This document shows, one piece after another, positions 2,589-4,106 of a stretch of DNA of 64,000 nucleotides. The stretch is taken from the NCBI RefSeq assembly GCF_001182895.1, contig NZ_LFQR01000083.1, positions 1 to 64,000 on the forward strand, read 5' to 3'. This DNA comes from Frateuria defendens. GTDB lineage: Bacteria; Pseudomonadota; Gammaproteobacteria; Xanthomonadales; Rhodanobacteraceae. A program made the position numbers and the translations under genes. The notes under the pieces were generated by a model. The model was given only the letters and a program-made list of their open reading frames with translations. It had not been told where the DNA came from and searched no databases. The number at the start of each line of letters is the position of its first letter. Position 1 is the stretch's first letter.

Positions 2589-4106
2589 TCAGTCGGCCCT
2601 TTCGCGCCCGGCCGGCGGCGGCAGGCCGGCACGACGGATGGCGTAGCGCTTGATCTTGTTGGCTAGCCCCACCCGCGACAGGCCCAGCTCGCGCGCCGCC
2701 TTGCTGTGGTTCCAGTGGCAGCAATCGAGTGCGTCGCGCACCAGTTGCGCCTCCAGCGTCTCCACCTTCTCCTTCAGCGTGCCACCCGGCAGGTCCAGCA
2801 GGCTCGCGCAGGCCGGCGGCGAGGGCGGCGCGGGCCGCGCGCTGGAGATCTCCGGTGAGAGGTGACGCACGGTGATGAATTCGCCGTCGTCGATCAGCGC
2901 CATGATCCGGCGTACCTCGTTCTCCAGCTCGCGCACGTTGCCGGGGAAGTCGTAGGCGCCCAGGCAGGCCAGCGCCTCGGGCGTGATGCCGGCCACGTGG
3001 CGACCCATGTTGCCCGAGTACTTCTCCAGCAGGTGCGCCACCAGCGGCGGGATGTCCTCGCGGCGCTCGCGCAGCGGCGGAATGCGCAGCTCGAAGCCGC
3101 GCAGGCGGTAGTACAGGTCGCGCCGAAACTTGCCCTGCGCCACCAGCGGCCGCAGCGGCCGGTCGCTGCTGGCGATGATGCGCACGCCCCGCCCCGCCTG
3201 CGGCGGCTCGCCGGCCTGCAGGAAGCGCAGCAGCGCCGCCTGGGTGGCCTGGGAGATGTCCGAGATGCCGTCCAGGAACACGCTGCCGCCCTCGGCCGCC
3301 ACCAGCAGCCCGGGCTGCGTGCCGCGCTCCCCGTCGGGGCGGCCGAACAGCACCGCGCGCAGGGCTTCGTCCGTCTCCACCGCGCAGTTGACGTGCATGA
3401 AGAGCAGGTTGTGGCGCTGGCTGAAGAGATGGATGGCGCGCGCCATCGGCTCCTTGCCGGTGCCGGTCTCGCCCTCGATCAGCACCGGCAGGTCGGTGAG
3501 CGAGGCCTTGCGGGCGAAGTTGCAGACCTCGGCCATCGCCGTGCTGGCGAACACCAGCCGGTCGAAGGTGTAGATCTCGCGCATGGCCTTGTGCACCGGG
3601 TCCGGCGGCTGCACGGTGCGGTCGGTGAACTTGAGCTGGCGCGACAGGTAGCGGTGGATGCGCGAAAGCTCGCGGGCCTCCAGCGCGCGGCGCACCAAGA
3701 GGTGCACCTGCTCGGGCTGCCAGGGCGCCATGATCACCTGGTAGATCGCCGCGTCGTTGATGGCGTCGCGCACCACCTGGGTGGCGTCGTTGTCGAGCAC
3801 CATCACCCGCACCGTGTCGCGGTGGTGCACGCGCAGCTCGCGCAGCAGGTCCACGCCGCGCCCGTCCACCAGCACCTGTTCCACGATCACCAGGTCGGCG
3901 CGGGTTTCCTCGTTGTTGAGCGCGGCCAGCGCCTCGCGGGCGCGGTCGTGCACGCTCACCGCGTAGTCGGTGCCCAGCCGGCGGCGCAGCCGCGCGTCGC
4001 GCGCCAGCCGCCGGCCCACCAGGGCCACCCGCCACTCGTGCGAGCGGGTCGCCTCGGCCTCCAGCGCTTCGAGCAGGGGCACGATGGTCTGCGGCGGCAG
4101 GTTCAT
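2589..4106 (-). CDS. hoxA: HoxA/HupR-like hydrogenase regulator with degenerate receiver and AAA+ motifs
   Basis: A 505-residue protein with the NtrC layout: receiver (about 25-145), AAA+ domain (about 185-410) and a C-terminal Fis-type helix-turn-helix (HSKAARELGLSRVGLANKIK). Key residues are altered. The phospho-acceptor Asp is Glu76 (LVIVEQ). The N-terminal acidic pair is missing (VALVGRR). The conserved receiver Lys is Ala127 (APW). Walker A is intact (GETGTGKE, 212-219). The GAFTGA loop that contacts sigma-54 is absent (FGRPDGERGTQPG). Walker B reads FLDGISD, with Gly280 where Glu is expected. It is the last gene of the hyp operon, 37 bases after hypA. It likely controls hydrogenase genes, perhaps without sigma-54 or phosphorylation; that is inference. 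Confidence 0.85.
   Translation of the reverse strand: MNLPPQTIVPLLEALEAEATRSHEWRVALVGRRLARDARLRRRLGTDYAVSVHDRAREALAALNNEETRADLVIVEQVLVDGRGVDLLRELRVHHRDTVRVMVLDNDATQVVRDAINDAAIYQVIMAPWQPEQVHLLVRRALEARELSRIHRYLSRQLKFTDRTVQPPDPVHKAMREIYTFDRLVFASTAMAEVCNFARKASLTDLPVLIEGETGTGKEPMARAIHLFSQRHNLLFMHVNCAVETDEALRAVLFGRPDGERGTQPGLLVAAEGGSVFLDGISDISQATQAALLRFLQAGEPPQAGRGVRIIASSDRPLRPLVAQGKFRRDLYYRLRGFELRIPPLRERREDIPPLVAHLLEKYSGNMGRHVAGITPEALACLGAYDFPGNVRELENEVRRIMALIDDGEFITVRHLSPEISSARPAPPSPPACASLLDLPGGTLKEKVETLEAQLVRDALDCCHWNHSKAARELGLSRVGLANKIKRYAIRRAGLPPPAGRERAD

Follow-up and report, generated by a model that had tools for sequence, protein, structure and literature searches.

The regulator encoded at 2589 to 4106 of the window, the stretch of 64,000 nucleotides analysed here, is probably a working DNA-binding regulator of the huc and hup hydrogenase genes which is independent of both phosphorylation and sigma-54 and which would activate through RNA polymerase carrying a housekeeping sigma factor. 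Directly observed are the losses in the protein, its placement in the tree, the operator matches, the absence of a -24/-12 element before hucS and the presence of rpoN with an RpoN box. As the regulator lost its sigma-54 parts and its target promoter lost the matching element, its control of hydrogen use probably takes a different route, and contact with the housekeeping polymerase is the likeliest reading of these sequences. The features of the regulator gene are listed below.

2589..4106, minus strand (open reading frame 4106..2589): regulator gene, 505 aa, with a degenerate receiver, an AAA+ domain without GAFTGA and Walker B Glu, and a Fis-type HTH
3879..3881, minus strand: codon of E76, the phospho-acceptor position by alignment
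3333..3338, minus strand: P257-D258 junction, where the GAFTGA (L1) loop present in the same-family relative G226 is deleted
3267..3269, minus strand: codon of G280, which replaces the Walker B Glu by alignment
3189..3215, minus strand: pre-sensor-I (L2) loop, residues 298-306, shorter by 6 residues than in relatives
2643..2765, minus strand: Fis-type HTH (HTH_8), residues 448-488, strongly conserved

Pfam matches comprise Sigma54_activat (PF00158, 124 bits, E 4.9e-36), the AAA lid and HTH_8, and a Response_reg match of 27.8 bits lies just below the cut-off of 30.2. Residues were placed by two alignments, one with 20 relatives and one of 78 proteins. The receiver carries G31-R32 in place of the acidic pair, E76 for Asp and A127 for Lys. 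The core of the GAFTGA loop was removed by a 12-nt in-frame deletion relative to the G226 protein, leaving FGRP-DGERG, and in the 78-protein alignment Walker B reads FLDG, with G280 for Glu. Sensor I is changed from AASN to ASSD, and E252 is replaced by Val; these two changes, the shorter pre-sensor-I loop and the Pro after Walker A go beyond those in the earlier note. Walker A (GETGTGKE, 212-219) is kept, though followed by P220 where homologues have Leu; FRRDLYYRL (from 327), PGNVREL (from 388) and the HTH (from 466) are unchanged. The earlier note on this DNA had the coordinates right, the gene being on the minus strand, and its reading of Glu76, of the missing acidic pair, Lys and contact loop, of Gly280 and of an intact Walker A and Fis-type end was borne out by the alignments. 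A GAFTGA displaced elsewhere, which that note had named as grounds for doubt, and a frameshift were rejected since the other two forward frames hold no GAFTGA and GC3 of the stretch stays at 0.96; with all three frames and the alignment searched, the loss stands. Sequencing error is also unlikely because there are several separated in-frame changes.

The 67 GAFTGA-type homologues (11 of the 78 rows, the window's included, being left out) have 52 invariant columns, of which the regulator retains 47; it departs at five, L220P, E252V, deletion of G257, A260E and E280G, all of which fall in the AAA+ core. Judged on this alignment, the departures exceed chance.

Homologues were searched with a cut at E 1e-65, for which only first-look candidates, 3-6 per genome, were scored. 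A match at this value or better was obtained in 4 of 233 same-family genomes (the window's own included), and in 30 of 398 phylum and 26 of 369 class genomes, the window's own being counted in both; further homologues were taken from named collections, including plasmids. The tree was built from 72 proteins, the other six of the 78 having been dropped as fragments or near-copies, and its clades were drawn from the midpoint root. On it the window regulator is sister to G226 (100/92), followed by G015 and G036, and lies inside a 19-row Huc-linked clade (100/100) apart from HoxA and HupR. It carries the Sigma54_activat AAA+ domain and is HoxA/HupR-like, as had been proposed, but on the midpoint-rooted tree it belongs to a separate Huc-linked clade and not to the HoxA/HupR clade proper.

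The losses are of two ages. The complete phosphorylation set (acidic pair, Asp, Lys) was found in none of 22 Huc-linked clade proteins as against 52 of 54 other HoxA/HupR-like proteins (2 of 78 rows left out; L152 scored as not intact solely for a missing N-terminus), and therefore phosphorylation was most simply lost before the Huc-linked clade diversified. This loss is older than that of the loop because it is common to the whole clade, members with a canonical loop included. Loss of the loop and of the Walker B Glu came recently, since all three same-family relatives (G226, G015 and G036, 66-67% identical to the window regulator) retain both. Thus, the question whether close homologues share the losses has a divided answer, and of the conversion from a phosphorylated sigma-54 activator suggested earlier, the departure from sigma-54 is supported, in loop and hucS promoter, while the receiver loss predates it and forms no part of it. 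On this ordering, the Huc-linked clade would have lost receiver phosphorylation long ago, for which reason the regulator would act without a histidine kinase, and the window lineage would later have lost the contact loop along with the catalytic Glu of Walker B and a pre-sensor-I loop of the normal kind.

A broken GAFTGA is present in seven rows of the tree, which requires three changes: in the window, in Rhodobacterales Huc-linked regulators (GAFPGA, GAIPGI) and in Rhodobacter-type HupR (GMLPGG, GALPGA, GILPGG, GVLPGG). Among these rows the Walker B Glu is also absent in the window and the HupR group only.

In the window the regulator is the last gene of one tightly packed run, formed by the accessory genes and hypF, C, D, E and A. 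The surrounding features are listed below.

1000..1518, plus strand: hydrogenase maturation protease
1521..2573, plus strand: NicO/HoxN-type nickel transporter
4144..4479, minus strand: hypA
4488..5537, minus strand: hypE, with AIRS and AIRS_C domains, syntenic with HypE in G015 and G226
5534..6661, minus strand: hypD
6658..6939, minus strand: hypC
6951..9272, minus strand: hypF
9290..10456, minus strand: NHL-repeat accessory gene
10453..11334, minus strand: NifU-Rieske accessory gene
11334..12284, minus strand: accessory gene, judged TPR-like by eye in the absence of a Pfam match at 1e-5, with a relative in huc clusters
12381..12397, no strand given: predicted operator (11 of 12) upstream of the first gene in the run ending with the regulator

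The closest plasmid homologues of the regulator adjoin a hydrogenase operon with NifU-Rieske and NHL genes and a relative of the 11334-12284 gene. The structural genes of the window genome are located on another contig, C178, where hucSL is divergent from a second hydrogenase, hupSL, related to Azospirillum HupSL (86% and 73%). HucS is 78% identical to that of Bradyrhizobium and 79% to those of the three same-family relatives, and its best PDB matches are 7uur ('Hydrogenase-2, small subunit', E 4.8e-152) and 7utd (E 7.4e-152), both of which we take to be Huc, a group 2a hydrogenase. A group 1h enzyme was rejected, as the HucS match points to the Huc type. The assignment of the regulator to the Huc-linked clade is found in its placement as sister to G226 and in a genome that has hucSL and operator matches. 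A PF00374 search of this genome returned two full large subunits and one match below the cut-off, which sits between hypA and hybE in the place of the hupK-like gene of Afipia; as the third match has this position, no separate sensor hydrogenase was seen among the PF00374 matches. A second small subunit was not found at E 1e-20 in G015, G036 (85% complete) or G226.

The promoter of hucS follows the state of the loop. Counting same-strand sites only, with approximate sigma-54 weights modelled on the published consensus and an 11-bit cut picked after the scores were known, a -24/-12 site of at least 11 bits precedes hucS at 16 of 17 intact-loop loci versus 0 of 6 broken-loop loci (Fisher p = 7e-5, all 23 loci). 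Non-redundant loci gave 13 of 14 versus 0 of 3 (p = 0.006, 17 loci), and p = 0.025 was obtained with Rhodobacterales counted as one event; at a 13-bit cut the counts were 15/17 versus 0/6, and 12/14 versus 0/3 for the non-redundant loci. The intact-loop loci have the site 57 to 109 bp upstream of hucS, the exception being L145 with 8.7 bits. L167 (G932, 14.5 bits) was excluded from the count, its regulator being a fragment without the loop. The six broken-loop loci, namely the window genome, four Rhodobacterales records and G618, score 4.4 to 7.2; the four records share an identical 400-bp upstream region, and two of the three non-redundant loci are Rhodobacterales on one branch. A Huc-linked clade regulator is also present in G983, where hucS was not found.

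Random sequences gave the same picture. The best score between -160 and -40 of hucS in the window genome, 3.0, was matched by 136 of 300 random sequences, so that no -24/-12 site is found there, and those of L094, L101 and L118 by 101, 114 and 220 of 300. The intact-loop sites (G226 not included) and that of L167 were matched by 0 to 2 of 300, and that of L145 by 15. On the opposite strand, L094 and L101 have 13.9-bit sites at a distance of 626 bp upstream of hucS. Before hupS of the window genome the best -24/-12 score is 8.5 bits, 26 bp from the start, which does not qualify as a site. Sites of 12 bits or better in the first 20 kb of C178 are at 5912, 6440 and 12110, and a 13.4-bit site lies in the window at 12130 on the plus strand; none of them precedes hupS or hucS. 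Genome-wide, -24/-12 patterns with up to one mismatch numbered 24 versus 36 for the reversed pattern, which gives no signal. No good sigma-70 promoter was seen in the hupS-hucS region either, where the best relaxed pair matches 7 of 12. As a separate observation, the huc cluster with the GAFPGA regulator and the identical 400-bp upstream region (L094, L101, L195, L196) is carried by several Rhodobacterales plasmids or contigs, which suggests its recent transfer.

A general loss of sigma-54 from the genome was rejected: it carries rpoN, RpoN box included (ARRTVAKYRE), and the six other bEBP-like proteins found all have a GAFTGA, GAYTGA or GSFTGA loop. The same genes lend something to the idea that the regulator is still a sigma-54 activator, working with altered loops at unrecognised promoters and possibly sharing mixed rings with a paralogue that is intact, as does the Walker B Glu mutant E108Q of PspF, which can still remodel according to the available part of PMC4132715. 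Nevertheless, according to the accessible text of PMC3162934, sigma-54 is contacted through GAFTGA and most alterations of this motif abolish activity, and hucS has no upstream -24/-12 site; this explanation appears very improbable. Going back to the housekeeping polymerase, we consider it about an even chance that an enhancer-binding ATPase and its target promoter switched sigma class together with the operator kept, so that a hydrolysis-free, phosphorylation-free AAA+ protein drives Huc and the adjacent Hup through that polymerase. In that case, the switch would be one of three separate losses among the HoxA/HupR-like proteins in the sample, and in close relatives protein and promoter alike would be preserved in their ancestral form. 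The hucSL promoter may instead have changed by rearrangement and not with the regulator, because HucS is divergent and the hup operon adjoins.

The putative operator, TGCAAA-N5-TTTGCA, occurs upstream of hucS at most loci, often with a second weaker copy. A perfect copy, TGCAAACAAGGTTTGCA, is present in the window genome at C178:14681-14697 between hupS and hucS; its centre precedes the start of hucS by 144 bp and that of hupS by about 213 bp. Twelve of 12 was reached by 0 of 4200 shuffles of 21 upstream regions. With at most one mismatch the pattern occurs at four places in the 4.19 Mb genome, two of them at hydrogenase genes, and the reversed pattern at one. One predicted operator would thus be common to the divergent hucSL and hupSL and the other would precede the regulator's own gene run. 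The C178 region 14471-14832 (L108) is noted in its own right, as hydrogenases of different groups, hupSL and hucSL, diverge there with one perfect operator common to both. The remaining two places have no hydrogenase link: a second perfect match at C318:6140-6156, between genes for monomeric isocitrate dehydrogenase and a Dabb-domain protein, and a place on C269 before an H-NS-like gene.

Among the 17 loci examined, L167 and loci with an intact loop, 12 have the best operator copy centred 83-99 bp before the -24 element. G015 and G036 have the -24/-12 site but no strong operator nearby (best 10 of 12, about -387), and G226 has 10 of 12 at -212. Upstream of the regulator's gene run, a moderate sigma-54-like site of 12.2 bits is present in G015, and no clear sigma-54 site was found there in the window or in intact-loop G226. 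In the window (12360-12365), G015 and G226 (L110, L190), the operator before the first accessory gene is followed after a 15-nt gap by TTGACA, a candidate -35 box or, alternatively, a candidate half-site of another operator.

The positions of the operators bear on whether the protein turned into a repressor or, TyrR-like, an architectural DNA-binding protein, which would limit the housekeeping polymerase at the shared and own-run operators. Retention of operator and HTH with the activation parts gone would fit this, as would TTGACA so close to the operator of the accessory run and a hucS operator nearer the start (144 bp) than the 157-212 bp of 16 of 18 other loci not known to be broken-loop. 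However, the centre of the shared operator lies over no evident promoter at its distances from hucS and hupS, and the available portion of PMC5133592 gives an activating role to HupR, which of the characterised cases resembles this one most. We therefore regard repression as unlikely, though the least so of the alternatives, and activation remains the preferred reading.

Whole-gene pairwise dN/dS of the regulator was 0.22 versus G015 and 0.41 versus G226 (all values by NG86 only, and rough because dS is near or above 1). By the same measure, the gene shows no sign of general decay: the HTH gave 0.06-0.17 and the receiver 0.17-0.27. In the case of residues 240-300, values of 0.34 and 0.84 were obtained for the window pairs versus 0.12 for the G015-G226 pair, and the terminal branch of the window regulator is 0.47 versus 0.13 for its sister G226. 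Both figures would be expected if the AAA+ domain were decaying with little function left, hucSL and hupSL being constitutive or under another regulator. This is set against the full-length frame, the constrained HTH and receiver, the 47 of 52 invariant columns retained and operator matches at two hydrogenase places, and we find decay improbable. The modelled AAA+ domain (mean pLDDT 88, pTM 0.56; about 80 for residues 251-270 and 73 for 301-310) has bEBPs as its nearest folds, and the model confidently indicates that the bEBP fold is kept.

Taken together with the preferred reading, these data suggest a mechanism in which the regulator probably still binds ATP without hydrolysing it, probably oligomerises on the TGCAAA-N5-TTTGCA operators and, at a hucSL promoter that lacks the -24/-12 element of its relatives, would directly contact RNA polymerase with the housekeeping sigma factor as an activator.

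The parallel with Rhodobacter HupR drawn in the earlier note is a good one. HupR was compared through Fuscovulum L099 and L141-L143 rather than the R. capsulatus AAA+ sequence. It is a hydrogenase regulator of the same superfamily, and the four relatives have a broken GAFTGA with GG, NG, EG or AG at Walker B. Yet the loss is a separate event on the tree, the phospho-acceptor is retained in HupR, and the R-finger segment is YYA in the four relatives where the window regulator has YYR. In the accessible parts of the sources, HupR activates unphosphorylated and is described with HupT and HupUV (PMC5133592), while HupR without a kinase accompanies a group 2 hydrogenase in Acidithiobacillus (PMC2621215). 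This agrees with the receiver loss of the Huc-linked clade, to which the Acidithiobacillus protein may or may not belong.

The other Huc-linked regulators (G226, G015, Bradyrhizobium L091) share the clade, the degenerate receiver, the accessory genes and mostly the operator type. They differ in retaining the Walker B Glu and a loop of the GAFTGA type and, in all cases with hucS examined except L145, in a -24/-12 site of at least 11 bits before hucS. Those of Rhodobacterales (Octadecabacter L094, Roseovarius L101, L118) share the clade, an altered loop (GAFPGA/GAIPGI) and the lack of a same-strand -24/-12 site; they differ in being a separate event that retained the Walker B Glu and the pre-sensor-I loop. 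HoxA of Cupriavidus necator H16 (L098) has the same domain order, HTH type and hydrogenase operon setting, but its receiver, GAFTGA and Walker B are intact and its gene is followed by regulatory hydrogenase and kinase-like genes.

Together with HupR, GAFTGA-less bEBP relatives outside the hydrogenase systems supply the nearest known cases of such a mechanism. The available text of PMC3162934 lists TyrR and DhaR, along with HupR, as sigma-70 dependent and argues that VpsR is not sigma-54 dependent, and that of PMC10274813 describes NtrC of R. capsulatus and Caulobacter as lacking GAFTGA and acting without sigma-54. These proteins, compared by description and VpsR also by database match, serve other regulons, and some need phosphorylation or ATP according to the same part of PMC10274813. 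Among the matches listed, which were titles and abstract openings of mostly non-subscription literature, no report was found of the receiver loss of the Huc-linked clade or of a promoter change accompanying the loop.

These sequences bear on how bacterial activators pass from ATP-driven sigma-54 control to the ordinary mechanism. The loop, Walker B and promoter steps are separable for testing here because the states before and after occur within a single family whose operator is defined and whose promoter region is short. Moreover, the Huc-linked clade offers a set of apparently phosphorylation-independent regulators for a trace-H2 hydrogenase type.

Two minor observations concern HoxA-like genes. 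L170 (G705:C84), which lies outside the Huc clade, is a second HoxA-like regulator that has lost the receiver site with GAFTGA and Walker B intact, and its genome also carries a hupS-like gene on that contig. The HoxA-like genes L139, L158, L159 and L166 each contain one in-frame TGA, perhaps because reading ran on past the stop at the gene's end.
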